Below are positions 31,523 through 47,589 of a DNA stretch of 64,000 nucleotides, in pieces. The stretch covers positions 558,001 through 622,000 of the forward strand of contig JAEULJ010000001.1 of the NCBI GenBank assembly GCA_016793865.1. The letters are read 5' to 3'. The notes beneath the pieces were generated by a model. The model worked only from the letters and a program-made list of their open reading frames with translations, had not been told where the DNA came from and made no database searches. Made by a program: the position numbers and the translations under genes. Source of the stretch: Altererythrobacter sp. Lineage in GTDB: Bacteria > Pseudomonadota > Alphaproteobacteria > Sphingomonadales > Sphingomonadaceae. Each line of letters begins with the position of its first letter. Positions within the stretch are counted from its first letter, which is position 1.

Positions 31523-32433
31523 CAGAAATAGCCTTCCTGCTTCTTGCGCTCCATGCCGGCGCCGCCGTCATCCTTGTCGATGGCGCGGCCCTGGCGCTCG
31601 CTGGTCGCGGTCAGCAGCATCTCGCGTATCACTTCGTCGAGCGTAGCCGCCTCGCTCTCCACCGCCCCGGTCAAAGGATAGCAGCCCAGCGTGCGGAAGC
31701 GGATCGAGCGCATCTGCGGCTGCTCGCCGGGCCGCAGTGGGAAGCGTTCGTCGTCCACCATCAGCAGCATCCCGTCGCGCTCCACTATGGGGCGCGGGGC
31801 GGCGAAATAGAGCGGCACGATCTCGATGGCTTCCTGCTGGATGTATTGCCACACATCGAGCTCGGTCCAGTTGGAGAGCGGGAAGGCGCGAATGCTCTCG
31901 CCCGGCTTCAGCCTGGCGTTGTAGAGGTTCCACAGCTCGGGGCGCTGGCGGCGGGGATCCCAGGCGTGGCTGGCCGAGCGGAACGAGAACACCCGCTCCT
32001 TGGCGCGGCTCTTCTCCTCGTCGCGCCGCGCGCCGCCGAATGCCGCGTCGAAACCGTGTTGGTCGAGCGCCTGCTTTAGCCCCTGCGTCTTCCACATATC
32101 GGTGTGGAGTGCACCGTGTTCGAAGGGGTTGATGCCGCGCTCCACCGCCTCGGGGTTGCGGTGCACCAGCAGCTCCATCCCGGCGGCCCGCGCGGCCCGT
32201 TCGCGCAGTTCGTACATGGCGGCGAACTTCCAGGTGGTGTCGACATGCAGCAGCGGGAACGGCGGCGGGGCGGGGTGGAACGCCTTGCGGGCGAGGTGCA
32301 GCATCACCGCGCTGTCCTTGCCCACCGAATAGAGCATCACCGGCCGCGCCGCCTCGGCCACCACCTCGCGCATGATGTGGATAGCCTCTGCCTCGAGGCG
32401 CTGAAGATGGGTGAGGGCCGTAAGCGCGGTCAT
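31522..32433 (-). CDS. cysD: Sulfate adenylyltransferase subunit 2
   Basis: The 303-residue protein forms the ATP sulfurylase with CysN and makes APS from sulfate and ATP. The PP-loop is [13 protein letters not shown] (SGGxDS-type), and the typical [22 protein letters not shown] and [12 protein letters not shown] motifs follow. It is the first gene of the cysD-cysNC-cysQ chain on the minus strand. The ATG at 32433 is the first available start. About 120 bp upstream separate it from the TonB receptor and include a strong hairpin (32512-32544). Confidence 0.97.
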
Positions 32434-32511
32434 GGAGGGCGCCCGCCTAGCGCAATTGGGCGCGCTTGTTGCCCTAAATCGGATTTGGCGGGGCCAAGCG
32501 CCGCTGTCAGC

Positions 32512-32544
32512 GGGGACGCGCCGCCAACGCAGGCGGCGCGCCCC
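32512..32544 (-). terminator. Strong GC hairpin after the TonB receptor stop
   Basis: Arms 32512-32525 and 32532-32544 pair over 13 bp with one bulged A, around a 6-nt loop. It lies about 10 bp past the TonB-receptor stop and before cysD. No T-run follows on the minus strand, so termination strength is uncertain. Confidence 0.5.
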
Positions 32545-32553
32545 AAGGCATTG

Positions 32554-35500
32554 TCAGAACTTCACCTCGGCCAGCAGAGTGAAAGAGCGCCCGCGCGGGT
32601 CGGCGACGCGCGGCTCCCACGAGCTACCCGCTCCGGTGTTGCTGTCATAGGTGATGGCAAAGGGCGGATCGGTGTTGAAGATGTTCCGGACGCCAGCGGT
32701 GATTTTGAACGCATCCCCGATGCGCTTTGCGATCGATACATTGTAGATGATGTAGGGGCTCACCCGATCATTGTAGTCGGGCCGGGTGGCCGAGGCGGGC
32801 AGGGCATTGTTCTTGTAGCCGTTGCGATAGATCTGCGAGAAGGTGAGGGTAAAATCGTCTTTCACATAGCTGATGAAGGCGCTGTGCTTCCAGCGCAGGC
32901 CAAGATCGCCGGCATAGGTGAAGACTCCGATCAGGCTCGGCCCGAAGGGTGAGGTAGGCAGGAACCGCTCACGCTTCTTGAGGAGATAGGTCCCGTCGAG
33001 TCCGGCAGTGAACTGCCCGCCCGCCGCATCGAAACCGCCTCGCGCCGAGACCTCGAGGCCTTGGGTACGCCGTGAGCCGATGTTGTCGGCGCGCAGATCC
33101 AGCTCTGTAATGACGCCGTTTTCGCGGTTTACTCGGTTAGGGAAAGAGGACTGGTTGTTCAGAAGCTGCGCGATGGTCAGTGAACCGATGGTGTTGTCGA
33201 CCGCGATCGACCAGAAATCGACTGAGGCGCTGAACATCGGCGCAGGCGTAAACACGATGCCGGCGGAATATTGTTTGGAGGTTTCCGGGCCGAGGTTGAG
33301 ATTGCCACCGGTCAGCGAAGTGGGATTGATCACCGTGCAGCCCGGTGTGACGTTGACGATGCCGCCGGTCGGACAAGTGGTCGGATCGGTAAGCGTGTTG
33401 CCGGGATTGGGCGATTCGGTGACGCCATTGAATATCTGGTTGAAGCTCGGCACGCGAAACCCGGTGTTGTAGGATGCGCGGAACATCACCCAATCGAAGG
33501 GACGGAACCGGGCGGTGAACTTGGGGTTCACTGTGCTGCCGAAGCCCGAATAATCGTCGAGACGAACGGCGGCGGTCAATTCCAGCGGCTCGAACACCGG
33601 GATCAGCACCTCGCCGTATACCGCCTTTACATCGCGCTTCTTGGGCGTGAGCGCGTTAACGTTGTCGAAGGCGACGTTGAAGATTTCGGGCGTTCCCGCA
33701 ACCGCCGCTGCCGATCCGTTGAAGCTGTATGTCTCACGCCGATAATCCGCGCCGACGGCAACCTGTACCATCCCGCCTGGCAGTTCGAAGAGCGATCCCG
33801 AAATCGAGGCATCGAACTGCGTCACCTCATACTGGCCGCCGTAAAGCGTTGTGCCCTCAGCCGAGATCGCGTTGAGTCCCGCCAGTGCCGCTGCTGACTG
33901 GTTGATAGTGAAGGGATTCAGGATACCGCTGTTGAGCAGTCCGACGATACCCGGCGCGGTGGCTCCCGGCGCAATCGGCGCGCGCGAGTCGATACCACCG
34001 TTGACGGCGCCTGGCACGCCGGATGCCGCGGCGTTGGCGGCCGAGCGGAAGATACCGGCGAAGTGATATCCTGTGCCGAGGACCGAGGATGCCTCGCTCT
34101 TGGCGTAGGATGCACCGGCGCGGTAATCCCAGGTGCCGCCAATCGGGCCTTCGATACCGAGTGCGCCGCGTATCGTCGTCGTGTTGGTCACATATTCGCG
34201 GTTGCCGCCGGGAATGTTGCGCCAGCGATAGGCGATCGGCTTGCCGTAATTGCCGACGGCGTCAGCCGTACGATCCCCCACCGCGCCGATGGCCGGGAAG
34301 GTGGTGGCGATCGCATCGTAGACCGCATTGTATGTCGACGCTGTGATGGAATTAAGCGGGAAGTACAGCGGCATGGTGGTGGCGTTTATCGAGTACTGGT
34401 TGTTTGAAAAACGCTTGCGCGATACCGCGTCCGACCCGGTGACTTCCGCCGTGATGCGATGGTCGCCGAGCGCCAACGTGCCCTTTGCGTAATAGGTCAG
34501 TGTCTCGAGCGGCTGTTGCAACACCGCGGCACGGCCGGTGTCCCACGAGCAGGCGTAACGCGCACCGGGGATCGACCACAGCACCTCGTCATATGCCATG
34601 CCGCCCTCGACGGAATCGCAGCCAGCGCCGCCAGGCAAATCGAGTGGATTGATGCCACCGTCGGCTCGGATAGTGGTGCCAGGGATGAGCAGCCCCGGCA
34701 GAAGCGTTGCGCCGGTAGTGCCGCCCAGCAGCGAGCCGTTGGGCGCGAAGATGCTGTTGGGGTTCGCGGGGAAAGCGGTTGCGATCGGCGTGCCGCGGGT
34801 GTCCACCGACAGGCCCCGATTGGGCTGGTTGCCGTTGACGAAGTCGCGGTCGCTGCCCCTCAGCATCCCGTTCCAGCTCTTGCTCACCGCGGCCATGATG
34901 TTGAAGCCCTGATCGTCGAGATCGCCGAATCCGGCAGTGGCCGAAAGTCGATAGATCGGGCTGTCGCCTTGCTGGGTGATGTCGGTAAAGCCGGTCAACG
35001 CCAGGCCCTGGAAGTTCGTTTTGGTGATGAAGTTGATCACGCCGCCGATCGCATCCGTGCCGTAGATGGCCGACGCCCCGTCCTTGAGCACTTCGACCCG
35101 CTCGATCGCCGCGAAGGGAATCTGGTTCACATCGACCGCGCCGCCGGTGAGGCCGTGCGCGGCAACCCGCCGACCGTTGAGCAACACCAATGTCGAGGCG
35201 GCGCCCTGGCCACGCAGGTTCGCGGCCGACAGCCCGTTGGTGCCACGTTGCGCGCCGCTGGTGACATCGGAGTTCGAGGCGAGGTTGTCCGCGCCGTTGC
35301 CGTTGGTGGACAGGTAGGAGATCAGCTGTTCGGGGCTGTTGATGCCCTCGCGCGTAAGATCGGAGGTGGTGATGATCTGTAGCGGCAGCGCGCTGCGGCT
35401 GGGATCCTGGCGGATGCGCGATCCCGTGACGATGATCCCGGTTGAATCGTCGTGGTGCGCCTGCTCGGCCGGGGCGCTGGTCACGGACGCCGGTTCGGAG

Positions 35501-35598
35501 GGTGGGGCTTCCTGAGCCGCGAGCGGCATGCCGATGGCCAGCGCGGCCAGTGCGGAACCCGCGCGCAAACCTGTGCGGAAAGTAACGATAGAACCCAT
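32554..35598 (-). CDS. TonB-dependent outer-membrane receptor
   Basis: The 1014-residue protein has a signal peptide (about 1-28), a plug domain starting IIVTGSRIRQDPSRSALPL (TonB-box-like region just before) with VEVLKDGASAIYGTDAIGG, and a 22-strand barrel ending ...LLAEVKF with a C-terminal Phe. It would import a large substrate across the outer membrane using TonB/ExbBD energy. The plug lacks a recognised siderophore signature; sphingomonad receptors of this length often take up oligosaccharides, peptides or aromatic compounds. A GGGGGG ribosome site lies just upstream of the ATG at 35598. An inverted repeat at 35650-35676 lies 52-78 bp upstream. There is no inner-membrane partner next to it. 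Confidence 0.93.
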   Translation of the reverse strand: MGSIVTFRTGLRAGSALAALAIGMPLAAQEAPPSEPASVTSAPAEQAHHDDSTGIIVTGSRIRQDPSRSALPLQIITTSDLTREGINSPEQLISYLSTNGNGADNLASNSDVTSGAQRGTNGLSAANLRGQGAASTLVLLNGRRVAAHGLTGGAVDVNQIPFAAIERVEVLKDGASAIYGTDAIGGVINFITKTNFQGLALTGFTDITQQGDSPIYRLSATAGFGDLDDQGFNIMAAVSKSWNGMLRGSDRDFVNGNQPNRGLSVDTRGTPIATAFPANPNSIFAPNGSLLGGTTGATLLPGLLIPGTTIRADGGINPLDLPGGAGCDSVEGGMAYDEVLWSIPGARYACSWDTGRAAVLQQPLETLTYYAKGTLALGDHRITAEVTGSDAVSRKRFSNNQYSINATTMPLYFPLNSITASTYNAVYDAIATTFPAIGAVGDRTADAVGNYGKPIAYRWRNIPGGNREYVTNTTTIRGALGIEGPIGGTWDYRAGASYAKSEASSVLGTGYHFAGIFRSAANAAASGVPGAVNGGIDSRAPIAPGATAPGIVGLLNSGILNPFTINQSAAALAGLNAISAEGTTLYGGQYEVTQFDASISGSLFELPGGMVQVAVGADYRRETYSFNGSAAAVAGTPEIFNVAFDNVNALTPKKRDVKAVYGEVLIPVFEPLELTAAVRLDDYSGFGSTVNPKFTARFRPFDWVMFRASYNTGFRVPSFNQIFNGVTESPNPGNTLTDPTTCPTGGIVNVTPGCTVINPTSLTGGNLNLGPETSKQYSAGIVFTPAPMFSASVDFWSIAVDNTIGSLTIAQLLNNQSSFPNRVNRENGVITELDLRADNIGSRRTQGLEVSARGGFDAAGGQFTAGLDGTYLLKKRERFLPTSPFGPSLIGVFTYAGDLGLRWKHSAFISYVKDDFTLTFSQIYRNGYKNNALPASATRPDYNDRVSPYIIYNVSIAKRIGDAFKITAGVRNIFNTDPPFAITYDSNTGAGSSWEPRVADPRGRSFTLLAEVKF

Positions 35599-35649
35599 TG
35601 GATGCCCCCCGATGGTGGAAAATGTGCCGTACGCGACGTTTGGCGCAGA

Positions 35650-35676
35650 TTACGGTCATCTTGCAAGCGACCATAA
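35650..35676 (-). promoter_or_regulatory. Inverted repeat between TonB receptor and ampG-like gene
   Basis: The arms TTACGGTC and GACCATAA (7 of 8 bases complementary) are separated by 11 nt in a locally AT-richer stretch 52-78 bp upstream of the TonB-receptor start. The spacing fits a dimeric regulator site, but no known box was matched. Confidence 0.4.
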
Positions 35677-35786
35677 TTTTCCTTCCAGCGCCCATAACCG
35701 TCTGGCATCAGCACCCGCGCCGGCGGGGTCCGGCAGACTGCGCCAAGCGTGGTTTTCGGCAAGGAGCGGGGAGGAGGGGCGCGCTC

Positions 35787-37277
35787 ATGGCGACAGCGGC
35801 TGACGTATCTGACGGTGCCGCGCCCCGCCGCCTGCGCTCGCTCTATCTCCTGCTCGGCTTTTCCGCCGGCCTGCCGTTCTACATGTTCAATGCGGTCCTG
35901 CTGCTGCGGCTTTCGCGCCACGATGTGGATATAGCCATCATCGGCTTCTTCGCGTGGGTCGCGCTTCTGCCCACCTTCAAGTTCCTGTGGGCGCCCCTGC
36001 TGGAGCGCTGGGGCGTGCCCGGCTTCACGCGGTTCTGGGGGCGGCGGCGCGGCTGGATCATGCTCGCGCAACTCGGCATCGCCAGCGCCATGGTGGGCAT
36101 GGCCTTCACCAGCGACGATGCGAGCCTGCCGCTCACCGCCCTTTTCGCGGTGTGCCTCGCCTTCTGGACCACCACGCTGGAGATCGCCGCCGATGGCTGG
36201 CGCATCGAACTCGCCCCGACACAGGCGGAGCAGGCCCCGGTCGTCGCCGCCAATCTGTGGGGCTATCGCAGTGCCATGGTGGCGGCGGGCAGCGGGGCGG
36301 TGTGGATCGCGGCGAAGGCGGACTGGACATGGGCCTACCTCGCCATCGCCGCAGCGGCGTTCGCACCCTTCCCGATCCTGGCGGCGATGCGCGGCGAGGG
36401 CGGCGCACGCGGGCGGGCGGGTGCGTTGCTGGGCGGGATCGCGGGCGGAGCGGTCATCCTCGCCGCGTTCACGGCCCTGACGGCGGCGATCGGCTGGGTG
36501 GTTCTCGACACGGCGGCGCGCGCGGGCATCGGCTCGCAGACCAATGTCACGCCGTTCGTGCTGGCCGTGTGCGTGCTGCCTTTCGCGGTGCTGGCGGCGC
36601 TTCTCCCGCGCATTCGGCGGATGGACGCGGCGGCGCTGGCCCGGCTGTCGCCGTGGCTGAGGCCGTATGTGGACGTGTTCTGGCGCTTCGGATTCGCGGT
36701 GCTGGCGGTGCTTGGCTTCGTCTCGATCTATCGTGTGGGCGATGTGCTCGCGCTGACGCTGAACCATCCGATGTGGAACGAGCTCGGCTACAGCCTGGAG
36801 GCGATCGCCGTGGCCGATGGCGTGGTGTCGCTGCTCGCCAGCATCGCCGGAGTGGGGCTGGGCGGCTGGGCGGCGGCGCGCTGGCCGATGACCCGCGCGC
36901 TGCTGGCAGGCGCGCTCGCGGCGGCGGCGAGCAACTGGATCTACGTCTGGCTGTGGTCCGCGCCGGTCGCGCCCGCCGCGCTCTACACCGCGGTGGCGAT
37001 CGACCAGTTCGGCAATGGCATGGCCGGGGCGGTTTTCGTGGTCTATCTCTCCATGCTTGTGAACCCGCGCTACCCCGCCGCCCAATATGCCTTCCTCTCG
37101 GGCTTCGCGTTCCTGTTCGCGCGTCTGCTGGCGGGCGCCTCGGGCACGATGCAGAAAGGCATCGGCTATGACGGGTTTTTCCTCCTCGCGGGCGGCCTGA
37201 GCCTGGCGGCGGCGCTGTTCCTGCCCTTCATCGCGCGGATCAGGCCGCGTGAGCCTCGGGAAGCGGGCACCGCATGA
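35787..37277 (+). CDS. AmpG-like muropeptide permease (MFS, PAT family)
   Basis: The 496-residue MFS protein has about twelve to fourteen membrane segments. The N-terminal LYLLLGFSAGLPFYMF and the DGWRIELAP and GIATDGFF-like C-terminal segments (here GIGYDGFFLLA) are typical of AmpG, which brings GlcNAc-1,6-anhydroMurNAc peptides into the cytoplasm for recycling. A GGAGGAGGGG ribosome site precedes the ATG at 35787. Its stop overlaps the start of an SxxK hydrolase by ATGA, and dacB is next door on the opposite strand, so this is a peptidoglycan-recycling locus. AmpG versus another PAT permease is likely but not proven. Confidence 0.85.
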   Translation: MATAADVSDGAAPRRLRSLYLLLGFSAGLPFYMFNAVLLLRLSRHDVDIAIIGFFAWVALLPTFKFLWAPLLERWGVPGFTRFWGRRRGWIMLAQLGIASAMVGMAFTSDDASLPLTALFAVCLAFWTTTLEIAADGWRIELAPTQAEQAPVVAANLWGYRSAMVAAGSGAVWIAAKADWTWAYLAIAAAAFAPFPILAAMRGEGGARGRAGALLGGIAGGAVILAAFTALTAAIGWVVLDTAARAGIGSQTNVTPFVLAVCVLPFAVLAALLPRIRRMDAAALARLSPWLRPYVDVFWRFGFAVLAVLGFVSIYRVGDVLALTLNHPMWNELGYSLEAIAVADGVVSLLASIAGVGLGGWAAARWPMTRALLAGALAAAASNWIYVWLWSAPVAPAALYTAVAIDQFGNGMAGAVFVVYLSMLVNPRYPAAQYAFLSGFAFLFARLLAGASGTMQKGIGYDGFFLLAGGLSLAAALFLPFIARIRPREPREAGTA

Positions 37278-38275
37278 TCGAGGCTGTCGCCGCGCGCGCT
37301 TTCGAGGTGGCGACGCCCTTTCTCGGCGACCACGGCATTCCCGGCGCCGCGCTCGGAGTGGTGAGCGCCGAAGGCGAGCGCGCCGTTGTCCTGGCCGGCG
37401 ATGCGGCGCTGGTGCCCGAACGCGAGCCCCTGACGCGCGACCACTGGTTCGACCTCGCCTCGCTCACCAAGGTCATGGCGACCACACCGATGATCCTGGA
37501 GCTTGTCCGGCGGGGCCAGATCGACCTCGACCATTTCCTCACCACAGCGATCCCCGACCTGCGCCAGTACGACGAGGTCGGCGCGCTCGAGCGGCGGCTG
37601 ACCTTCCGCGACTGCCTGGCGCACCGCACCCATTTGCCCTCGGTGTTCCCGCTCTACACCTATAGCAGCGATCCCGGGCGGCTTAAGGCCTTCGTGCTCC
37701 AGCGCGAATGGCCGGTCGGCCCCGCGGTCTATTCGGACATCAACTTCATCCTGCTGGGCATCGCGGTCGAGCGGATCACCGGGCGCCCCTTGCGGGACTG
37801 GCCGCTGGCCGGGAGGCTGGCCTACGGCCCCACCCCCGGTCCGTCCGTGGCGACCGAGCACTGCCGCTGGCGCGAGCGGGTGTTGCGGGGCGAGGTGCAT
37901 GACGAGAACGCCTTCGCGCTGGGCGGGGCGGCCGGCCACGCGGGATTGTTCGGCACGGTGGACGGGGTGCTGGACTTCGCGCTCGGCGCGCTTCGCGGCG
38001 ACAGCGAGGCGATCCGCGAACCGCATGGTGAGGAGCGCACGCTCGGCTGGGAGCGGCGCTACCGCGGGTGGCAGGGGGGCGAAGCGTGCTCGCCCGCGAC
38101 CATCGGCCACACCGGCTTCACCGGGACCGGCTTGTGGATCGACTTCGAGCGCAGGCTGGCCTGGACGCTGCTCACCAACCGCGTTCACCCCACGCGGCAT
38201 GTCGACACCGGCATCTTCGAACTGCGCCCGGCGCTGGGCGAAACAGTGATCGCAGCCTTCGACGCGCTCAGTTAG
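37274..38275 (+). CDS. Cytosolic SxxK serine hydrolase coupled to AmpG-like permease
   Basis: The 333-residue beta-lactamase-fold protein has no signal peptide: it starts IEAVAARAFEVATPFLGDHG. The SxxK motif is SLTK, the second motif is YSDIN, and a late GHTGFTGTGLW provides the H/KTG-like strand, so the triad is intact in form. It begins inside the AmpG stop codon (ATGA). Because AmpG delivers anhydro-muropeptides to the cytoplasm, a cytosolic SxxK enzyme in the same operon could cleave or transpeptidate them, or hydrolyse an ester. Periplasmic PBPs would not make sense without a signal peptide. This pairing is worth a check. It overlaps dacB's end by 8 nt on the other strand. Confidence 0.82.
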   Translation: MIEAVAARAFEVATPFLGDHGIPGAALGVVSAEGERAVVLAGDAALVPEREPLTRDHWFDLASLTKVMATTPMILELVRRGQIDLDHFLTTAIPDLRQYDEVGALERRLTFRDCLAHRTHLPSVFPLYTYSSDPGRLKAFVLQREWPVGPAVYSDINFILLGIAVERITGRPLRDWPLAGRLAYGPTPGPSVATEHCRWRERVLRGEVHDENAFALGGAAGHAGLFGTVDGVLDFALGALRGDSEAIREPHGEERTLGWERRYRGWQGGEACSPATIGHTGFTGTGLWIDFERRLAWTLLTNRVHPTRHVDTGIFELRPALGETVIAAFDALS

Positions 38276-39716
38276 CGGCCGCCAGCGCCAGCAGCGCGCG
38301 GTCCATGATCGCGGTGGCGCGAACATCCTCGGGCACATCATTGGCGTAGATTGCGAAGGTCAGCACCTTGCCGCTCGCCGCTATCATCCAGCCCGCCAGC
38401 GCATTGGTGGCGTTGAGCGTGCCGGTCTTCGCAAAAATCCTCCCTTGCAACGGAGTGCCGGCGAAGCGGCGGCGAAGCGTCCCGTCGGCGCCGCCCACGG
38501 GCAGGCTTGCGCGGTAATCGGCGCCCCAGGGTTGGCGCTGGCTCCATTGCAGCAGGCGCACCGTGGCGCGCGGCGCGACGCGATTGTAGCTGGACATGCC
38601 CGACCCGTCGGAAAGGGTGACCTGGTTCGCGGACACCCCGGCCTCAGCCAGCATAGCGGAAACCACCGCCTGCCCGTCGGCGATCGATCCCTCGCTCTTC
38701 GCCAGACCGAGGCGGCGCAGCAACAGTTCCGCATGGAGGTTCTGGCTCAGCTTGTTGATCGTCACCACGCTCACCGCGACTTCCGACGGCGGGAGCGCGA
38801 CGACCGGGGGCGGCACAACCGGTCCGCTGGCCGGCGCAGGCGCAGGCGACACCGGCACAGGCGCGGCTTCGCGCGGCACCAGCGGACGGTAGCGCGATCT
38901 TGCCGCGCCCTTCACCCGCACGCCGCGGGCGCGCAGCATTCCGGCAAGTTGCCATGCGGCATAGTCCGCCGGATCGTCCACACCCAACCGCCACACGACC
39001 GGCGCCCGCGCCAGCCCGAACGTGCCGCTGACGACCAGTTCGCGGCCATTGGGCGCGCGATCATAGGCCAGCGTGTCGCCATCGCCCGCCACCGTAACGG
39101 CCATGTTCCGCACGGTGTAATAGGCGGGCACCACCACCACCGGAGGCGCTCCGATGGCTCCCGGCGCCACCGTGGCGGCGATCTCGTTGTCGTCGATCGA
39201 CAGCGCCGCAACGCCGGTGCCCGAACTGGAGGGGATGTTGTTCCAGCTCATCCCCGGGCTCCACCGCTGGTCGGGGAACAGCGTCGCATCGCCGATCACA
39301 TCGCGGACATGGCGGGTCTTGGCGGCGATCCCGTCCGCGAGCGCGGCAAGGCATCGCGCCAAGCAATCCGCCCGGCCCGACAGCCGCGCGTCGCCGCGCC
39401 CGATCAGCACCACGTCGCCGCCGCCCTCGATCCGCACCGCCGCGCCATGATCGTCCAGCGGGGCCAGCTCCCCCCGCGCCTCCGCCCACAGAGCCGCTGC
39501 CGTGGTGAACAGCTTGGTGTTGGAGGCGGGCATGAAGCGCCCCTCCGGGTTGATCGCCAGGATTTCGCGACCCTCCGCATCGGCGACGACCACGCCCCAA
39601 CGAGTGCCCGGCCCGGCCTCGGCCAGGATCGCCGATACCGGATCGGCCACCGCAGCCGTCTGGGCTGCCGCGGGCATGGCGGCGAAAGCGAGGGCGGCGG
39701 CGATGAGCAAGCGCAT
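38268..39716 (-). CDS. dacB: D-alanyl-D-alanine carboxypeptidase/endopeptidase (PBP4)
   Basis: The 482-residue penicillin-binding protein has a signal peptide (MRLLIAAALAFAAMPAAAQ). The three active motifs are SxxK in ASNTKLFT (about S63), SxN in DGSGMSSYN, and KTG in AKTGTLN. PBP4 trims D-Ala from stem peptides and cuts D-Ala-mDAP crosslinks in the periplasm. A Pro/Ala-rich insertion (about 270-300) is longer than in E. coli DacB. The ATG at 39716 is the family start; the upstream frame to 41384 is an antisense shadow of the amidohydrolase gene. It converges with the AmpG operon. Confidence 0.95.
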   Translation of the reverse strand: MRLLIAAALAFAAMPAAAQTAAVADPVSAILAEAGPGTRWGVVVADAEGREILAINPEGRFMPASNTKLFTTAAALWAEARGELAPLDDHGAAVRIEGGGDVVLIGRGDARLSGRADCLARCLAALADGIAAKTRHVRDVIGDATLFPDQRWSPGMSWNNIPSSSGTGVAALSIDDNEIAATVAPGAIGAPPVVVVPAYYTVRNMAVTVAGDGDTLAYDRAPNGRELVVSGTFGLARAPVVWRLGVDDPADYAAWQLAGMLRARGVRVKGAARSRYRPLVPREAAPVPVSPAPAPASGPVVPPPVVALPPSEVAVSVVTINKLSQNLHAELLLRRLGLAKSEGSIADGQAVVSAMLAEAGVSANQVTLSDGSGMSSYNRVAPRATVRLLQWSQRQPWGADYRASLPVGGADGTLRRRFAGTPLQGRIFAKTGTLNATNALAGWMIAASGKVLTFAIYANDVPEDVRATAIMDRALLALAAAN

Positions 39717-39775: not shown

Positions 39776-39875
39776 GCGGGCATAGCCTTTCAGCATGATG
39801 GCGGGGCCAGCCCTTGCCGGGGCGCGGTGCTGCCGCCACAATCCCCGCGATGGTTTCGCTGCTTCCGCCATCGGC

Positions 39876-41753
39876 ATGGGCCGTCTGAAGGTCATGGCCG
39901 CGCTCGCGCTGGGCTTGTCTGCGCCGGCGCTGGGTGGGGAACCCGTGGCGGCAACGGCGACGCCCGCGATCCTCATCGCCGGCGCGCGCGTATTCGACGG
40001 AACGGGAGCGGCCGCGAAGGTCCAGGATGTCCTGGTGGAGGGCGGGCGGATCGCGGCAGTCGGCAACGGCCTGCGCGTGCCCGAGGGCGCCGTCACGATC
40101 GAGGGACGCGGCAAGACGCTGATCCCGGGTCTCCATGATCTGCACACCCACCTGCGCTCTCCCGCGCTCGATGCGCCAGAGGATCTTGGCAAGGCCTGGG
40201 CCGGCTACCTTCTGGCCGGCGTCACCAGCGTCAACGACTATTCGGTTTCGGGCGAGATGATCGCGCCGATCCGGGCGATGGTCTCGTCGGGGAAATACTG
40301 GGCGCCGCATCTCAGCCAGGCGGTCCGCTTCGGCGTGCCGGGAGGGCACGGGACGGAATATGGCTGGGGGCATTTCTTCACCCTCCAGGCCACCACCGCG
40401 CGCCATGCCCGCCGGCAGATGCCGCTGGCGCTGTCCTACGCTCCCGATGTCATCAAGGTCTTCGCCGATGGCTGGCGCTATGGCCGCGATCCCGATCTCA
40501 ATTCCATGAACCGGCCCACGCTCGCCGCCATCGTGGCCGAGGCGCACAAGGCGGGCAAGCCCGTGGTGACACACACCGTCACGCTGGAGGGCGCCAAGCT
40601 CGCCGCCGCGGCGGGCGTGGATTCGCTCGGCCACGGCGTCGGGGACGCGCCGGTCGACAGGGAACTGACCGGGCTCATGCGGGCCAGCGGCACCGCCTAT
40701 ATCGGCACGATGACGGTGTTCGAGCCGCAGCAGACACGCGCGTTCGCACCCGGAGAGGTGGCGATGCGGAACCCCGACGAGCAGGCGCGCGAGACGGCCT
40801 ATGCAGCCGGAGCGGGGAAGAACCCGATCCTGCCCTATGACGCGCGCCGCTGGGACATCCTGCGCGCCAATATCAAGCGCCTCAAGAACGCCGGCATTCC
40901 CATCGGCATCGGGACCGACGCGGGCATCGGCGGGGTCTATCACGGCGCAAGCGCGCTGCGCGAGATCGCCATACTGACACAGAACGGATATTCGGCAGCG
41001 GAGGCGCTGGTGGCGGCCACCCGCACGAGCGCGGCGATCATGGGGCAGGATGCGGACCACGGCACGATCGAGCCGGGCAAGCGCGCCGATCTGGTGCTGG
41101 TCGATGGCCAGCCCGACCGGCGGATCGAAGACCTGTGGCGCGTGGCGCGGGTGTGGGTCGCGGGGCGCGAGGCGCCGCTGGCGAGCCTGCGCGCCCTGCG
41201 CGACGACCCGGCGATGACGCCGATGCCTTCCGATCCAATGCCCGGCCCGATCATGACCGGCGCGCGGGCCGACGGCAGGACCGATCTCGACACGCTTCCG
41301 GTGGCCACCACCGATCCGGGGACCGATCATTCCTGCCTGATCCCCATCGGCGATGGGCAGGAGGGGCACGCCGGACACACCCACCGCACCTTCCTCGCCG
41401 CCCAGATGGGCGGCGCGCCGCGCCCCTATGTGTCATGGGTGCTGCCGCTGACGCGCGGCGCGATCCATGTGGCGGATGCCAACGGCTTCGCGGGGATCGA
41501 GATCGCCGGCGAGGGAACGGGCGACTACCGGCTGGTGCTGGAAAGCTATGGCCTCACCGGCGATGCCTGGTTCTCCGCCCCCTTCACCCCCGGCGGCGCG
41601 GACCGGCCGCAGCAGATACCCTTCTCGGCCTTCACGAGCCGCGACCCCTCAGCCACGCTCGACCTGAAGCAGCTCCGCGCGATCCGGGTGATGCTGCGCG
41701 GCGAAAGCGGCAAGACCGCCTCGCTCCAATTGGGCTCGGTGCGCTTCTACTGA
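39876..41753 (+). CDS. Exported amidohydrolase with a C-terminal CIA30-like domain
   Basis: The protein (625 residues) has a signal peptide (about 1-24). The amidohydrolase barrel (about 35-450) shows DLHTHL (HxH), DVIKVFADG (carboxy-Lys candidate), VVTHTV, LGHGVGD and IGTDAGIGG. The final 150 residues form a separate beta-rich domain with WFSAPFTPGGADRPQQIPFS and ending LGSVRFY, resembling the CIA30/NDUFAF1 beta-sandwich often attached to carbohydrate-active or ligand-binding proteins. The HxH/K/H/H/D set is complete, so it should be active. Substrate unknown. ATGs at 39795, 39876 and 39894 are in frame; 39876 gives the best signal peptide. It converges on the D-aminoacylase-like gene with a 7-nt overlap. 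Confidence 0.85.
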   Translation: MGRLKVMAALALGLSAPALGGEPVAATATPAILIAGARVFDGTGAAAKVQDVLVEGGRIAAVGNGLRVPEGAVTIEGRGKTLIPGLHDLHTHLRSPALDAPEDLGKAWAGYLLAGVTSVNDYSVSGEMIAPIRAMVSSGKYWAPHLSQAVRFGVPGGHGTEYGWGHFFTLQATTARHARRQMPLALSYAPDVIKVFADGWRYGRDPDLNSMNRPTLAAIVAEAHKAGKPVVTHTVTLEGAKLAAAAGVDSLGHGVGDAPVDRELTGLMRASGTAYIGTMTVFEPQQTRAFAPGEVAMRNPDEQARETAYAAGAGKNPILPYDARRWDILRANIKRLKNAGIPIGIGTDAGIGGVYHGASALREIAILTQNGYSAAEALVAATRTSAAIMGQDADHGTIEPGKRADLVLVDGQPDRRIEDLWRVARVWVAGREAPLASLRALRDDPAMTPMPSDPMPGPIMTGARADGRTDLDTLPVATTDPGTDHSCLIPIGDGQEGHAGHTHRTFLAAQMGGAPRPYVSWVLPLTRGAIHVADANGFAGIEIAGEGTGDYRLVLESYGLTGDAWFSAPFTPGGADRPQQIPFSAFTSRDPSATLDLKQLRAIRVMLRGESGKTASLQLGSVRFY

Positions 41754-43303
41754 CACCCGCTCGCCGGACGGCGGGCAAGCGCCCGGCCCGCCGCGACCCC
41801 GGTCATCGCCCCGTCCTCGACCGCCAGCGCGCCATTGACGAGGACGTAGCGCATGCCGGTGGCGGTCAGGTCGGGCCGTTCATAGCTCGCGCGCGCTGCA
41901 TAGGTAGCCGGATCGAACACGGCGATGTCGGCGAAGGCGCCGGGGCGCAGCCGTCCGCGATCGGCGAGCTTGAAGCTGTCAGCGGTCAGCGCGCTGCTGC
42001 GGTCGATGAATTCGCGCAATGTCAGCACCTTGTTCCGGCGTACATAGGCCGCGTATTTCTCCGCGAAGCTGCCGTAGGCGCGCGGGTGGCCGGTCGAGGC
42101 GTCGCTGCCGGTCATCACCCACGACCGGCGCATGAAGGCGTCTATATCGGCGGGGGCCATGTTGAAGCTGATGGTGGCGGCATCGCCCTCGCGGATGGCG
42201 GCCATGACAGCGCGGAGCGGATCGAGGCCGAGCTCGCGGGCAATCGCCTCGAGCCGCTGCCCCTTCCAGCGGCCTTCCACCACCAGCAGGCTGGCGGCGC
42301 CGCCGCGGCGGCGCAGGTTTTCGGCTATGTCGCCCTCCAGCCGCTCGCGCAGGGCGGGATCGTCGAACCGTCGCAGCATGGCCGCGCGGCCGCCATCCTG
42401 CGCCCACAGGGGGACGAGGGCGGCGACCAGGCTCGTCCCGCTGGCGGCCCACGGATACTGGTTGGCGGTTACTTCCGCCCCGCCGGCGCGGGCGCGCTCG
42501 ATCATGGCGATGATCGCCGGAGCCTGGCCATGAACGTCCACGCCAAGCGCCTTGATGTGCGAGATGTGCACCGGGATGCGCGCTTCGCGGGCGATGGAGA
42601 TTGCTTCCGCCACCGAAGCGGCGAGCCCGGCGCCATAATTGCCCTCGTCGCGCATATGCGTGTCGTAGATGCCGCCGAGCGCGCCCGCCGCCTTCGCCAG
42701 CGCGACCACTTCGCCCGTCTCGGAGAAGCTCTGCGGGGCGTAGAACAACCCGGTCGAAAGGCCGATCGCCCCGTCGCACATGGCGCGCCGCACCAGCCGC
42801 TGCTCCTCCGCGAGCTCGGCGGGAGTGGGTGCCCGGCGCGCGCTGCCGACCACCTTCGACCGGATGGAGCCGAACCCGGTGAAGGTCGCGTAGTTGATCC
42901 CCACCGGCCTCGCCACGGCGCTGGCCAGCAGCGGCTTCACATCCACCGGCCCGAAGCCGTCATTGCCGACCAGGGTGGTGGTGACGCCTTGCAACAGGAA
43001 GGGTTCGACAAGGCGCTGCCGCGCGTCATCGCTTGTCAGCCGCCCCTCCACATGGGCGTGGGGGTCGATGAAGCCGGGCGCGACGATGAGCCCGCGCGCG
43101 TCGATGGTTTTCGCGGCTCTCGCCGGAAGGCGCTTGCCCACGGCCACGATGCGGTCGCCGCGCACCGCCACATCGCCCACGAAGGGCGCGGCCCCGCCCG
43201 GATAGATCGTCCCGCCCCGGATCAGCACATCGGCTTGCGGCGGCAAGGGCGCGGTGGCGCGGCCCGCGACCACCAGAGCCAGCGCCGCCGCGATGTATCT
43301 CAA
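41747..43303 (-). CDS. D-aminoacylase-like amidohydrolase, last gene of the dgcNA operon
   Basis: The 518-residue protein of the N-acyl-D-amino-acid deacylase family has a weak hydrophobic N-terminus (RYIAAALALVVAG), so it may be exported. Landmarks are GFIDPHAHVEG, the turn VGNDGFGP, YDTHMRDEG (His), VHISHIKALG (His) and TGSDASTGHPRAYGSF (Asp and HPR motif). Classic D-aminoacylases have GNCG with a Cys metal ligand; here it is GNDG, so a different subfamily or ligand chemistry is implied. The TTG start at 43303 shares TTGA with the dgcA stop; no in-frame ATG fits better. It would release D-amino acids (or N-acetyl-Glu products) within this operon. Confidence is high for family, moderate for substrate. 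Confidence 0.85.
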   Translation of the reverse strand: MRYIAAALALVVAGRATAPLPPQADVLIRGGTIYPGGAAPFVGDVAVRGDRIVAVGKRLPARAAKTIDARGLIVAPGFIDPHAHVEGRLTSDDARQRLVEPFLLQGVTTTLVGNDGFGPVDVKPLLASAVARPVGINYATFTGFGSIRSKVVGSARRAPTPAELAEEQRLVRRAMCDGAIGLSTGLFYAPQSFSETGEVVALAKAAGALGGIYDTHMRDEGNYGAGLAASVAEAISIAREARIPVHISHIKALGVDVHGQAPAIIAMIERARAGGAEVTANQYPWAASGTSLVAALVPLWAQDGGRAAMLRRFDDPALRERLEGDIAENLRRRGGAASLLVVEGRWKGQRLEAIARELGLDPLRAVMAAIREGDAATISFNMAPADIDAFMRRSWVMTGSDASTGHPRAYGSFAEKYAAYVRRNKVLTLREFIDRSSALTADSFKLADRGRLRPGAFADIAVFDPATYAARASYERPDLTATGMRYVLVNGALAVEDGAMTGVAAGRALARRPASGCQ

Positions 43304-44283
43304 CCCCAGAACCCTTCGCTCGGCGGAAGCAGCCAGCCGCCATCGGCGACCACGCCGCCCGGACGGTCCTCGGCCAGCCACAGCGGACCGTCAAGATCGG
43401 CCCAGTCGGCCAGCCGCGCCACATGAAGCGCGGGGGCGATCCCGAGCGAGGAGCACACCATGCAGCCGCTCATCACCCGCAGCCCGCGCCCGCGCGCGGC
43501 GTGGACCAGCTCGAGCCCCGCGGTGAGCCCGCCCGCCTTGTCCAGCTTGACGTTGACCGCATCATAGCGCGCGGCCACCCGGTCGAGCCCGGCGACGGTG
43601 TGGATCGCCTCGTCCGCGCAGATCGGCACCGGGCTGTCGTAGCTGGCGAGCCAATCGTCCTCATCGGCCGGCACGGGCTGCTCCAGCACCGCGACGCGGC
43701 ATTCCTCAAGAACCGGCATCACCGCACGCAGCAGCGTCTCGCCCCAGCTTTCGTTGGGATCGACGATGAGCGCCGCGCCCGGGGCTGCGTCCCGCACCGC
43801 CCGGATGGCCGCCGCCGGGTTGCCGGCATCGACCTTGACCTTGACCAGGGGCGCGCCGGCCATCGCTGCCGCCGCGCGCGCCATGACATCGGGCGTGTCG
43901 ACACCGATGGTCAGCGCCGTCGCCACGCGGACGGGTTCCGGCGCCCCGAGCAGCGCGGCGACACTGCGGCCGGCGCGCTTCGCTTCCAGGTCCCATAGCG
44001 CGCAGTCCACGGCATTGCGCGCCGCGCCGGGCTGCATCAGGGTTTGGAGCTCCGCGCGACCCGCGCCCGCCTCGATCTCGCCGCGCACGGCCTCGATCTG
44101 CGCCAGCACCAGCTCGGTGCTTTCGCCATAGCGCGGGTAGGGGACGCCCTCGCCCCACCCCTGCAAGCCTCCCTCGATCACCGTGGCCGTTACCACATCC
44201 GCCGCGGTCTTGGCGCCGCGCGAGATGCGGAACGGGCGGTTCAGCGGGAAGCGGTCGGGGCGGGCGGCGAGGGTGCGGCGCAT
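43300..44283 (-). CDS. dgcA: N-acetyl-D-glutamate racemase DgcA (enolase superfamily)
   Basis: The 327-residue enolase-superfamily protein resembles dipeptide epimerases. Its KxK motif is VKVKVDA, the metal ligands are in IVDPNESW, LEQPVP and CADEA, and the second Lys is in VNVKLDKAGG. In the DgcN-DgcA pathway described in marine bacteria this enzyme converts N-acetyl-D-Glu to N-acetyl-L-Glu; without DgcN next to it I would have called it an Ala-Glu epimerase. It starts inside the end of dgcN (43 nt overlap), and its stop is shared with the D-aminoacylase TTG start. Both arrangements support one operon. The ATG at 44283 gives the usual N-terminus. Confidence 0.87.
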   Translation of the reverse strand: MRRTLAARPDRFPLNRPFRISRGAKTAADVVTATVIEGGLQGWGEGVPYPRYGESTELVLAQIEAVRGEIEAGAGRAELQTLMQPGAARNAVDCALWDLEAKRAGRSVAALLGAPEPVRVATALTIGVDTPDVMARAAAAMAGAPLVKVKVDAGNPAAAIRAVRDAAPGAALIVDPNESWGETLLRAVMPVLEECRVAVLEQPVPADEDDWLASYDSPVPICADEAIHTVAGLDRVAARYDAVNVKLDKAGGLTAGLELVHAARGRGLRVMSGCMVCSSLGIAPALHVARLADWADLDGPLWLAEDRPGGVVADGGWLLPPSEGFWG

Positions 44284-45272
44284 AGCAGGTCCATGATCGG
44301 CTCGACGCCGAAACGATAGGGATCGGTGGCCGGCAGGCCGAGCCTGTCCGCAGTCTCGCGGCACAGTGCGCGCGCCTCCGCTTCCTCCAGGCTGGCGGTG
44401 TTCAGGCATACACCGGCGGCGGCAACCTGCGGGCTGGTGAGCCGCGCGGCATCGAGGTTCGCGGCAAGGCATTCCTCGAGCCCGGGCAGCTTGCGGCCGG
44501 GCAGGCCGCGCATCTCCGCCCGGGCGGGATCGTGGCACAGCACCAGCGCCTCGGGCTGGGCGCCGTGAAGCAGGCCGAGCGAGACGCCGGCGAAGCTGGG
44601 GTGGAACAGCGAGCCCTGGCCCTCGATCACATCCCAGCCGCCATCGTGCCGGGCGGGCGTGAGCTGCTCGATGGCCCCGGATATGAAATCCGCCACAACC
44701 GCATCGACCGGGATGCCGCCGCCCGCGATCAGTATGCCGGTTTGCCCGGTGGCGCGGAAATCGGCCGCCAGCCCGCGCGCCTTGAGCCCTTCGGCGAGCG
44801 CGATCGAGGCGTACATCTTGCCCACCGAACAATCGGTGCCCACGGTCAGCAGGCGCCGCCCGGCACGCGGCTCGCCACTTCCGACGCGCAGATCGGCGGG
44901 CGGATCGCGCACATCGATCAGCCGCAGCCCGCGCGCCTCGGCCAAGGCGACGAGAACCGGCACGTCACGCAGGCGGTGATGCAGGCCCGAGGCGACGTGC
45001 ATCCCCGCCTCCAGCGCCGCGCGCGCATCGTCGATCAGCTCTGGCGCCATCGCGCCGCCGGCATGGGCGATCCCCAGGACCAGCGTCCTGGCCCCGGCGG
45101 CGGCGGCCTCCTCGATGGTCAGACGCGGCAGGCCGAGCGTGAGCGGGCAGTCATCGTGGCGGAACTCGCCCAGGCAATCGCCGGAACGGAACGTGGCCAG
45201 CCCGCGCGAGGTCTTGATCCCCACGGAATCGCTCGAATGGCCGAGATAAAGGAGGAATGGTGCTTGGATCAT
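44241..45272 (-). CDS. dgcN: D-glutamate N-acetyltransferase DgcN (DUF1611 family)
   Basis: The 343-residue DUF1611 protein has the P-loop-like TVGTDCSVGKMYAS near residue 145, ATGQTGILIAGGG, EGQGSLFHPSF and DPYRFGVEPIMD. In the pathway reported from marine bacteria, DgcN acetylates D-glutamate using acetyl-CoA, the first step before DgcA racemisation. The gene is first in the operon; the ATG at 45272 has GGAGG-type sequence about 10 nt downstream on the plus strand only, so the ribosome site is unclear. A LysR-like dyad (45330-45346) lies 58 bp upstream, and the lysR gene ends 111 bp upstream. Confidence 0.87.
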   Translation of the reverse strand: MIQAPFLLYLGHSSDSVGIKTSRGLATFRSGDCLGEFRHDDCPLTLGLPRLTIEEAAAAGARTLVLGIAHAGGAMAPELIDDARAALEAGMHVASGLHHRLRDVPVLVALAEARGLRLIDVRDPPADLRVGSGEPRAGRRLLTVGTDCSVGKMYASIALAEGLKARGLAADFRATGQTGILIAGGGIPVDAVVADFISGAIEQLTPARHDGGWDVIEGQGSLFHPSFAGVSLGLLHGAQPEALVLCHDPARAEMRGLPGRKLPGLEECLAANLDAARLTSPQVAAAGVCLNTASLEEAEARALCRETADRLGLPATDPYRFGVEPIMDLLCAAPSPPAPTASR

Positions 45273-45383: not shown

Positions 45384-46274
45384 TCAGCCGGAAATCGCCT
45401 CGATCCGCCGCGCCAGGGCCTTCAGGAAATCGGTCGCCAGCGCCGTCGGCGGGCGATCCTGGAGATACATGGCGTTCACGTCGAAGCGCAGCGGGTCGGC
45501 GAGCGGCCGCATGGCGAGACCCGGCGCCAGCGAGGCCTTCGCCGTGAAGTTGTCCACCACCGTCAGCCCCACGCTCTGCCGCACCAGCGCGGTCGCGATG
45601 TGGAATGTGCGCGCCGACACCACCTCCTCCAGCTCGATTCCCCGCGCCTGCACGGCCGTGGCGAAGAGCTGTCCGATCGGCCCGCTCGCGGACAGGGTGA
45701 CCAGCGGCCGTCCCTCGAGCACGGAAAGATCGACGCGCTCCGGCATGTTGGGCATGTCGGCCTCGCGGTAGAGCACAACCAGCTCGCCGGTACCCAGCCG
45801 GCGATGGCCCAGCGCGGCGCCGGGTGGAACCTCGTGCGCGATGGCAAGGTCGGTCTCGCGCTCGTAGAGCTTCCTCAGCAGATCCTCGTGGTGGATGGTC
45901 TGGAGATCGAACTTCACCTCGCCATGCGTGCGCAGGAATTGCGCCACCGTCCCCGGCAGTGCATCGAGGGCGATCGAGGGAAGCGACGAGACCTTGAGCA
46001 GCGCCCCCGTCCCGCGCTTCAGGTTCCGGCTCGCCTCGCGCAGGGCATAGACCCGGTCCTGTATCGCGGCCACATCGCCGAACAGCGCATGGGCGTCTTC
46101 CGTGGGGACCAGCCGTCCGGCGCTGCGATGGAACAGCGCGAAGCCAATCAGCGATTCGGCATGGCGCAGAACCTTTGAGACCGAGGGCTGCGACACATTG
46201 AGCATACGCGCGGCGGCGCTGACCGAGCCGTTGACATAGACGGCGTGGAATACCTCGATGTGGCGCAGGTTCAT
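45384..46274 (-). CDS. LysR-type regulator of the dgc operon (DgcR-like)
   Basis: The 296-residue protein has an N-terminal winged helix-turn-helix (HIEVFHAVYVNGSVSAAARM, then LNVSQPSVSKVLRH) and a LysR co-inducer domain (about 90-296). It lies upstream of and in the same direction as dgcN-dgcA-D-aminoacylase, with a 111-bp gap that holds a LysR-type dyad. A D-Glu-responsive activator DgcR is known for this pathway in other bacteria, so the same role is likely here. The ATG at 46274 is the usual LysR start; the extension to 46310 is not needed. Divergent gene: SxxK hydrolase at 46348. Confidence 0.88.
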   Translation of the reverse strand: MNLRHIEVFHAVYVNGSVSAAARMLNVSQPSVSKVLRHAESLIGFALFHRSAGRLVPTEDAHALFGDVAAIQDRVYALREASRNLKRGTGALLKVSSLPSIALDALPGTVAQFLRTHGEVKFDLQTIHHEDLLRKLYERETDLAIAHEVPPGAALGHRRLGTGELVVLYREADMPNMPERVDLSVLEGRPLVTLSASGPIGQLFATAVQARGIELEEVVSARTFHIATALVRQSVGLTVVDNFTAKASLAPGLAMRPLADPLRFDVNAMYLQDRPPTALATDFLKALARRIEAISG

Positions 46275-46347
46275 GCCCGCGAGCTTAGGCGCTGGTCGGG
46301 CGCGGCGCAAAGCTTGGCAGGCGTGTTTCCGCCGTTAGGGTGGCGCA

Positions 46348-47589
46348 ATGCCCGCTCTCAATGCTCCCAATGCCCCCGGCGCAGCGCTTCGACTGACGCT
46401 TGCGCTCACCGCGGCGCTCGCCGGCCCGGGCGCCTCGGCGCAAACCGTGCCCGCCACCGGGCCCGCGGTGCGGCAGGAACCCGTCGGCGCGGTGCGGATC
46501 GCTTTCGACCGGGCCGGCGAACGGTCGGTCGTGGTGGCCGGTTTGGCGGACCGCACCACCGGGCGAGCGCTGACGGCGGACGATCCGGCCCGCATCGCGT
46601 CTATCTCGAAGCTGGTGGTGGGGATCGCGGTCATGCGGCTGGTGGAGGCTGGCACGCTCGATCTCGACGCCGATGTCGCGCGTTATCTTGGCCAACCTCT
46701 GCGAAACCCGGCCTTTCCGGGCTCGCCCATCACGCTGCGCCAGTTGCTCTCGCACACTTCCGGCCTGACCGATGGCATCGATTATGTCCTCCCGTTCGAT
46801 GCCGACATGGCGGCGGTGCTGGCGGACCCGGCGGCATGGGACGCGGACCATCCGCCGGGAAGCTACTTCCGCTATGCCAACTTCAACACGCCCGTGATCG
46901 CCGCCGTGATGGAGAAAGCCACGGGCGAGCGCTTCGACCTGCTGATGAAGCGCGTGGTGCTGGACCCGCTGGGGCTGCGGGCGTGCTACAACTGGGTCGC
47001 CTGCACGCCGCAGACCGCAGCGCGCGCGGTGGTGCAATATCGCGAGCGGAAGCCGACCAAGGACGATCCCGCATCGATCACGGCCTGCCCCGTCACCCCC
47101 GCCCGCGACGGTTCATGCGACCTCGCCCGGTGGCAGGCGGGGCGCAATGGCGCGGTCTTCTCGCCGCAGGGAGGGCTGAGGATTTCGGCGCGCGATCTCG
47201 CGACCATCGGGCGGCTGATGCTGAACGAAGGGCGGCTGGGCAAGCTGCGCCTGCTCACGCCCGCCTCGGTGCGCGCGCTGGTCGCGCCGGTGTGGGCTTA
47301 TGACGGCCGCAATGGCGACAACCAGGGCGGGTTCCTGTGCCGATACGGCCTCGCGACGCAGACACTGGCCACGAAGCAGGAGGGCTGCCGCGACGATCCC
47401 TTCGGCGATGGCGTGGCGCGGGTCGGCCACGCGGGCGATGCCTATGGGCTCAAATCGGGGTTGTGGCTGGACATGGCAGCGGGAGCCGGCGTGGTCTATT
47501 TCGCCACCGATGTGCTCGATGCCGACGCCGGGCTGCGCTCTGGCTATACCCGGATCGAGGAACAGCTGGCCCGTGGCACCCGGCCATGA
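46348..47589 (+). CDS. Exported serine hydrolase, beta-lactamase / PBP-like fold
   Basis: The 413-residue protein has a signal peptide (about 1-31, ending GASAQ). The SxxK motif is SISK, the second motif is YAN, and a GHAGDAYGL stretch is in the place of the third motif. It resembles D-Ala-D-Ala-type or esterase-like class C proteins; no evidence for antibiotic hydrolysis. Two Cys pairs ([10 protein letters not shown], and [11 protein letters not shown]) could form disulfides in the periplasm. It is divergent from the dgc regulator (73 bp gap), which may share regulation, and its stop is 49 bp before moaA. Confidence 0.87.

Follow-up and report, generated by a model that had tools for sequence, protein, structure and literature searches.

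A signal-less serine hydrolase of the AmiE/PBP4B group overlaps a second AmpG-type permease gene in Sphingomonadales and is a probable cytosolic muropeptide amidase

The stretch of DNA analysed (the window) comprises 64,000 nucleotides of the genome of an Altererythrobacter sp. from the order Sphingomonadales (assembly GCA_016793865.1, contig JAEULJ010000001.1, positions 558,001 to 622,000). It contains a gene for a serine hydrolase with an SxxK motif, here termed the SxxK gene, which begins inside the stop codon of a permease gene of the AmpG type. The features of this pair, in window coordinates, are the following:

37274..38275, plus strand: signal-less SxxK serine hydrolase, AmiE/PBP4B-related, a proposed cytosolic muropeptide amidase (PF00144, alignments, tree and AlphaFold model).
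35787..37277 (start about 35787), plus strand: AmpG2, a second AmpG-type muropeptide permease paralogue (TIGR00901, 323.4 bits).
37274..37277, plus strand: ATGA start/stop overlap, in which the ATG of the SxxK gene shares bases with the AmpG2 TGA (37275-37277).

The SxxK open reading frame (ORF) starts with the ATG at 37274 and encodes 333 amino acids, including the motifs SLTK (S63-K66), YSDIN (Y153) and GHTGFTGTG (H279). The PF00144 match reaches 106.9 bits and no other domain family is matched. An earlier reading made from the nucleotide letters (the sequence-only reading) had pointed to these motifs and to the start within the AmpG-like stop codon, and both observations hold. Its description of the hydrolase as translationally fused to the permease is wrong, as these are two separate, overlapping genes. 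Of 21 Sphingomonadales loci, 17 retain the four-nucleotide overlap (ATGA or GTGA, with start codons chosen by hand), and the remaining four show a one-nucleotide overlap or gaps of 6, 8 and 9 nucleotides. Such retention is more than chance, and the translation of the two genes may be coupled.

The link with AmpG extends across the order. At E<=1e-10, the SxxK gene is detected in 12 of 118 Sphingomonadales genomes: two matches are weak and partial, and ten are close, corresponding to the window genome and nine others with 65-77% identity. AmpG2, sought at E<=1e-100, is present in exactly the same ten genomes. The co-conservation that the sequence-only reading had set as a check is thus observed; as the genomes are related, these co-occurrences cannot be treated as statistically independent. 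In all nine close loci retrieved, AmpG immediately precedes the SxxK gene in the same orientation, and it is within 3.5 kb in the nine sphingomonad loci of the genome scan detailed below (one of them, L036, at a contig end). What had to be revised is the identity of the partner, which is a second paralogue, and the extent of the unit, since the pair is part of a larger island. The housekeeping AmpG of the window genome is encoded on another contig and scores 395.2 bits, above the TIGR00901 cut-off of 350 bits. All 13 enzyme-bearing sphingomonad genomes examined contain a linked AmpG of 314-344 bits and another one elsewhere of 353-418 bits. The linked permease is therefore taken as a paralogue (AmpG2), because a second, above-cut-off AmpG exists in each genome. 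Two genomes with the close enzyme each encode a further, more distant homologue (34-35% identity; L026 9524-10768 and L027 9526-10698), which in neither case has an AmpG nearby. The L027 homologue has a signal-like N-terminus and that of L026 is placed beside a BadF kinase and MurQ.

The cellular location of the SxxK protein can be predicted from its N-terminus. In the AlphaFold model (mean pLDDT, the predicted local distance difference test, of 95.4), residues 2-16 already form the first helix of the fold. An export signal would have no room in this confident model. A signal peptide in close homologues would have contradicted the earlier reading, and none is found in the 27 visible N-termini of the 28 close loci (identity of at least 47%; L060 is cut by the contig end). 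This call rests on the position of the start relative to the first helix of the fold, as the hydrophobicity measure separated exported and other proteins poorly (1.97 for L054 versus 1.98 for L100). The AmiE orthologue used for comparison (L157, Bacillales) has about 52 more N-terminal residues, and the SxxK protein does not share the export that marks the AmiE/PBP4B group. Most likely the enzyme is cytosolic, unlike its extracellular relative AmiE.

Within the serine hydrolases, the best NCBIfam model for the SxxK protein is PBP4B NF002968 (83.6 bits), and the next model reaches 25.7 bits. The curated cut-off of NF002968 is 385 bits, so that the protein counts as a relative and is not assigned as an orthologue of PBP4B/AmiE. 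The L157 orthologue scores 737.3 bits on the same model and lies in the gene order MurQ..AmiE-NagZ, with two intervening genes without assigned identity. The SxxK protein aligns with this orthologue at 98.6 bits and 28% identity in BLASTP, and with the class C paralogue of the window at 28.9 bits. The motifs FDLAS-TK, YSDI, GEVHDE, GHAGLF and GHTG-TGT are common to the SxxK protein and the AmiE orthologue. In a quick tree of 80 chosen rows, the window protein and 33 others form one clade, mainly from Alphaproteobacteria and Deinococcota (support of 100 in the SH-aLRT, the Shimodaira-Hasegawa-like approximate likelihood ratio test), within a 77-row group that contains AmiE. The outgroup consists of three long-branched rows, and the program warned that the long branches meet. 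Accordingly placed, the protein combines a PF00144 domain bearing the SxxK, tyrosine and HTG boxes with a grouping beside AmiE orthologues, apart from other PF00144 proteins, in a tree of this kind. S63, K66, Y153, H279 and G281 are invariant in 29 rows, which were picked partly by motif. Two members of the clade (L054 and L057) are titled Mycobacterium, a label taken from the titles, yet group with the Alphaproteobacteria and Deinococcota.

Other identities were rejected. The best class C beta-lactamase family gives 25.7 bits against a cut-off of 825; the protein matches PF00144 only and is not an AmpD, the Amidase_2 gene being elsewhere in the genome; and it contains no Peptidase_S66 domain, as LdcA would, with S66 genes also elsewhere. 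In the search for a solved structure of the AmiE group, the matches listed are general PF00144 enzymes (four sequences; the best 60 of 68 and the best 50 of 660). The fold comparison therefore gives the general fold of class C enzymes, esterases and D-peptidases and leaves the bond that is cut undecided. AmiE of Bacillus subtilis is described as an N-acetylmuramic acid (MurNAc)-L-alanine amidase of extracellular muropeptide degradation (PMC5061867) and is listed as inactive on intact peptidoglycan (PMC10653849); here and below, statements with a PMC number reflect the accessible parts of the papers.

The cytosolic amidase and carboxypeptidase of peptidoglycan recycling are both represented in the window genome. 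It encodes one Amidase_2 protein (AmpD, 235 amino acids, without a signal) and gives two S66 matches, one of which is in the window. Amidase_2 and S66 occur together in all 18 genomes examined from the family of the window organism, ten with the enzyme and eight without. The suggestion that the SxxK enzyme replaces AmpD or LdcA is refuted here, since both families are present. The broader idea of a cytosolic muropeptide hydrolase or transpeptidase survives in its first half: an AmpG-linked cytosolic hydrolase is supported, and a transpeptidase appears less favoured. The S66 gene of the window (58608-59621, plus strand) is LD-carboxypeptidase-like, with 177.9 bits on PRK11253 (cut-off 378), and is located about 11 kb beyond the island; an S66 match of similarly high score is found in six of eight other genomes of the same genus.

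The island that surrounds the gene pair contains the following further features:

32554..35598, minus strand: TonB-dependent outer-membrane receptor, divergent from AmpG2 (PF00593, PF07715).
38268..39716, minus strand: PBP4, a dacB-type DD-carboxypeptidase/endopeptidase (TIGR00666, 186.5 bits; signal peptide read from the N-terminus).
39795..41753, plus strand: amidohydrolase AHa (PF01979; XaaProDiPepCaul, 129.9 bits, cut-off 500; export signal by eye; start uncertain).
41747..43381, minus strand: amidohydrolase AHb, presumably D-aminoacylase-like (PF07969; PRK09061, 192 bits, cut-off 340; hydrophobic N-terminus by eye; start uncertain).
43300..44283, minus strand: DgcA, N-acetyl-D-glutamate racemase (NF042940, 429.6 bits, cut-off 400).
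44241..45272, minus strand: DgcN, N-acetyltransferase of D-glutamate catabolism (NF041892, 490.7 bits, cut-off 480).
45384..46310, minus strand: LysR-type regulator, possibly of the island (recurs beside DgcN).
46348..47589, plus strand: class C beta-lactamase-like protein (signal at the N-terminus by eye; not a close relative of the SxxK protein).

PBP4 is convergent with the SxxK gene, as first read, and the stops of the two genes overlap. The receptor is found at 63-67% identity in L019, L023, L039 and L178, with weaker receptor matches in other loci. The G+C content of positions 32000-35999, the stretch of the receptor gene, is 0.63-0.65 versus 0.67-0.71 around it. The island set recurs with rearrangements and losses: PBP4 in eight of the nine retrieved loci, AHb in seven (excluding a short cross-match in L020), DgcA with DgcN in five and AHa in three. 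DgcN is present in 12 of 13 enzyme-bearing sphingomonad genomes examined versus none of eight genomes of the same genus without the enzyme. In two Sphingobium records, the SxxK gene is on a plasmid. A full version of the island on a Sphingobium plasmid comprises a NagK-like BadF kinase (248.6 bits, cut-off 370), D-lactate dehydrogenase, NagA, a SIS protein, MurQ, GntR, the permease, the enzyme, a class C homologue, dacB, a penicillin-acylase-like protein, the TonB receptor, an amidohydrolase, LysR and DgcN. The site of the island was compared by viewing three of 12 other genomes of the same genus beyond CysD. In L178 (2441-14867), the order TonB receptor-AmpG2-PBP4-DgcA-DgcN-LysR-class C protein lies between CysD and AroC; L177 and L179 have CysD without any island gene in the retrieved stretch. 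The DgcN-DgcA pathway converts D-glutamate to L-glutamate (PMC12363236, PMC10845958), and the island looks like a muropeptide-utilisation locus that ends in this conversion.

This distribution bears on the possibility that the enzyme is a housekeeping backup, a redundant AmpD for the turnover fragments of the cell itself. A cytosolic, AmpG-linked and AmiE-related enzyme would suit such a role. On the other hand, the gene is patchy (a close copy in ten of 118 genomes and in none of the eight other genomes of the same genus in that draw), is plasmid-borne in the two Sphingobium records and is placed near a TonB receptor and the second AmpG, whereas the housekeeping AmpG and AmpD are elsewhere. 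A backup role is thus very improbable.

The composition of the island raises another alternative, which is improbable although slightly less so: a locus for D-peptides that are not derived from the wall (lipopeptides, cyclic peptides such as microcystin, or N-acyl-D-amino acids), with AmpG2 as a peptide transporter and the enzyme as an MlrB-like peptidase. The fold of MlrB is of the penicillin-recognising type. Island loci repeatedly contain penicillin-acylase-like and amidohydrolase genes, with no penicillin-acylase-like gene seen in the window island, and the mlr cluster of sphingomonads pairs the transporter MlrD with MlrB (PMC12474180). However, the full islands include MurQ, the BadF kinase, NagA, the SIS protein and Dld. 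According to PMC12474180, a signal peptide is predicted for MlrB (95.2%), and mlrB and mlrD run in opposite directions, unlike the SxxK gene and AmpG2; on these two grounds an MlrB/MlrD identity was set aside, in a comparison made by description and not by sequence.

The genome scan used two peptide patterns (GHTGFTGT and GHAGLFGT) and kept the best 80 of at least 589 relatives, so that motif conservation is partly built in; the 80 divide into the 28 close loci and 52 more distant ones. At least one of AnmK, MurQ, NagZ, AmpG, NagA, SIS or BadF is within 3.5 kb in 26 of the 28 close loci and in 27 of the 52 distant ones. AnmK is near the SxxK gene in 16 of the 19 close loci outside sphingomonads, frequently accompanied by MurQ, NagZ or an ABC importer for peptides, and several distant homologues are placed C-terminal to NagZ in one ORF. 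Matches were found in 79 plasmid records, of which 11 were viewed as regions (L029 and L034, without annotation, were read by tblastn only). In the annotated plasmid records of Mariluticola and four Deinococcus, the enzyme is again near AnmK, commonly together with MurQ, NagZ or peptide-importing ABC genes. Four enzyme-bearing genomes, G125 and three Thermaceae (G126-G128), contain AnmK and MurQ and give no Amidase_2 and no S66 match, other amidase families not having been searched. This amidase gap is consistent with an enzyme that cleaves the peptide from the sugar.

Related proteins also occur in unexpected contexts. A plasmid of the haloarchaeon Halorussus vallis (NZ_CP100002.1; L182 1-12999) groups AnmK, a PGRP-type protein, an SxxK homologue (33%), a DUF1343 protein, which is presumably NamZ-type, NagZ and an ABC binding protein. 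The cluster reads as a bacterial wall-scavenging set in an archaeon, an organism without peptidoglycan of its own. Another haloarchaeal homologue (H53) has no recycling genes beside it. On a Burkholderia savannae plasmid (L180 4827-7217), an SxxK-like match (5001-5945) and a NamZ domain fall within a single annotated protein, which seems to join an exo-muramidase to an AmiE-like domain. In Devosia sp. A8/3-2 (L066 4558-14000), the SxxK gene, ABC genes, AnmK and MurQ match in separate pieces, as by frameshifts, and sequencing error is possible. A Thaumarchaeota metagenome-assembled genome (L064 1609-2604) contains a 36% homologue with only a weak NagA-like match about 4.4 kb away, and may be contaminated.

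Taken together, the SxxK gene, which overlaps that of a second AmpG, probably encodes an AmiE-group amidase that acts on muropeptides in the cytosol. Muropeptides, probably external, would cross the outer membrane via the TonB receptor, be shortened by PBP4 and further exported hydrolases in the periplasm and reach the cytosol via AmpG2. Then, the enzyme encoded in the overlapping frame would detach the stem peptide from (anhydro)MurNAc by means of Ser63, Lys66, Tyr153 and His279. The parts given to these residues follow by analogy from the known catalytic roles in class C enzymes and are putative. Subsequently, D-glutamate from the peptide would be converted to L-glutamate via DgcN and DgcA. 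The specificity of transport, the bond cleaved, the external origin of the substrate and the order of the steps are likewise proposed. Use of external muropeptides as a carbon and energy source is described for Fidelibacter (PMC11652737).

Several observations weigh against an amidase role in an AmpG2-fed pathway. Esterases, DD-peptidases and D-aminopeptidases likewise have the PF00144 fold, and AmpG2 is below the TIGR00901 cut-off, so that its substrate could differ. The SxxK gene, AHa and AHb are all missing from the L178 locus (the search covered the locus alone), and there AmpG2 can do without the enzyme. Strict coupling is also opposed by the loci outside Sphingomonadales, where AnmK or an ABC importer takes the place of AmpG as the neighbour. 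Island content varies among the nine retrieved loci, and the enzyme-bearing genome G113 is without DgcN. None of the genes sought is within 3.5 kb in two of the 28 close loci (L056 and L057) or in 25 of the 52 distant ones. The negatives in G125-G128 cover Amidase_2 and S66 only, in genomes whose completeness is not told, and the PGRP-type protein of the haloarchaeal cluster could be the amidase there. MurQ is found in just six of the 13 enzyme-bearing sphingomonad genomes examined. In the window genome, the presence of AmpD would make the SxxK enzyme redundant for anhydro-muropeptides, and neither AnmK nor MurQ gives a match. Because of this, the sugar freed has no obvious known route, and the peptide, rather than the sugar, may be the point of the pathway.

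These last features suit the main rival, a cytosolic peptidase that, once AmpD has freed the imported stem peptide, would cleave it at D-amino-acid bonds (at D-glutamate or D-alanine, for instance) and supply D-glutamate directly to DgcN/DgcA. The island is rich in genes of this kind (DgcA, DgcN, PBP4 and AHb), and the solved relatives include a D-amino acid amidase, an alkaline D-peptidase and a DL-peptidase. However, separation of sugar and peptide is indicated by the presence of the clade near AnmK, MurQ or NagZ in genomes without a DgcN match (G121-G124 and G126-G128) and in four genomes without Amidase_2. The score of 98.6 bits with AmiE (BLASTP) stands against 32.3 bits for the best solved D-amino-acid amidase (phmmer), two programs that are not strictly comparable. 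Such a peptidase is considered unlikely, and the amidase is preferred.

A wider reading of the amidase is offered tentatively, with doubt slightly outweighing belief. The locus would be a mobile peptidoglycan-utilisation unit of sphingomonads, in which the TonB receptor, exported trimmers, a second AmpG and the overlapping cytosolic AmiE-type serine amidase import and open the wall fragments of other bacteria. DgcN/DgcA, joined in full versions by the NagK-like kinase, MurQ, NagA, the SIS protein and D-lactate dehydrogenase, would use the peptide and the sugar. For the AmpD step, the signal-less clade would represent a second, non-zinc solution, which Deinococcota also have and which a haloarchaeon has in a related form. 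The cytosolic amidase reaction of recycling is currently assigned to AmpD-type zinc amidases, and a serine enzyme of the beta-lactamase fold would be their analogue at this step. This would explain the handling of muropeptides in Thermaceae that have AnmK and MurQ with no Amidase_2 match, and a route by which sphingomonads channel wall fragments into D-glutamate catabolism could then be tested directly. The enzyme could also matter for the removal of muropeptide signals from the cytosol. AmiE-type enzymes, AmpG import and the DgcN-DgcA pathway are each already known; among the best-matching papers listed from a collection with few subscription journals, none was seen to report an AmpG-linked AmiE-type enzyme without a signal peptide, the signal-less clade, the AmpG2 overlap or the island.

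The closest known systems are AmiE (YbbE) of B. subtilis and PBP4B of E. coli, the latter also named YfeW. They resemble the SxxK protein in the PF00144 fold, the motifs and the best NCBIfam model, and in many lineages relatives have MurQ or NagZ in their neighbourhood. Unlike AmiE, the SxxK protein has no signal peptide, its gene overlaps a transporter gene, and it shows 28% identity to the AmiE orthologue and 83.6 bits where 385 are required. NagZ-beta-lactamase fusions such as RmNag3 of Rhodothermus (PMC6987092) carry a related domain in the arrangement seen in several of the distant loci; RmNag3 has a signal peptide, whereas the SxxK protein stands alone and has none. The D-glutamate pathway is shared through DgcN and DgcA, both encoded in the island above the curated cut-offs, and the accessible parts of the papers that describe it (PMC12363236, PMC10845958) make no link with AmpG or an SxxK enzyme. 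In the AmpG-AmiR-NagZ recycling of Caulobacter (PMC13046382, PMC11980594), AmpG import in an alphaproteobacterium is followed by a cytosolic amidase, as proposed here; that amidase is of the Amidase_2 family, its operon includes a transporter and a regulator gene but not ampG, and no LdcA was found, as far as these parts of the papers go. The AmpD/AmiR recycling amidases share with the SxxK enzyme the proposed reaction and the cytosolic place. Their fold is that of a zinc enzyme, unrelated to the SxxK fold. The SxxK protein is not an Amidase_2 protein, and in the window genome it is encoded in addition to a separate member of that family.

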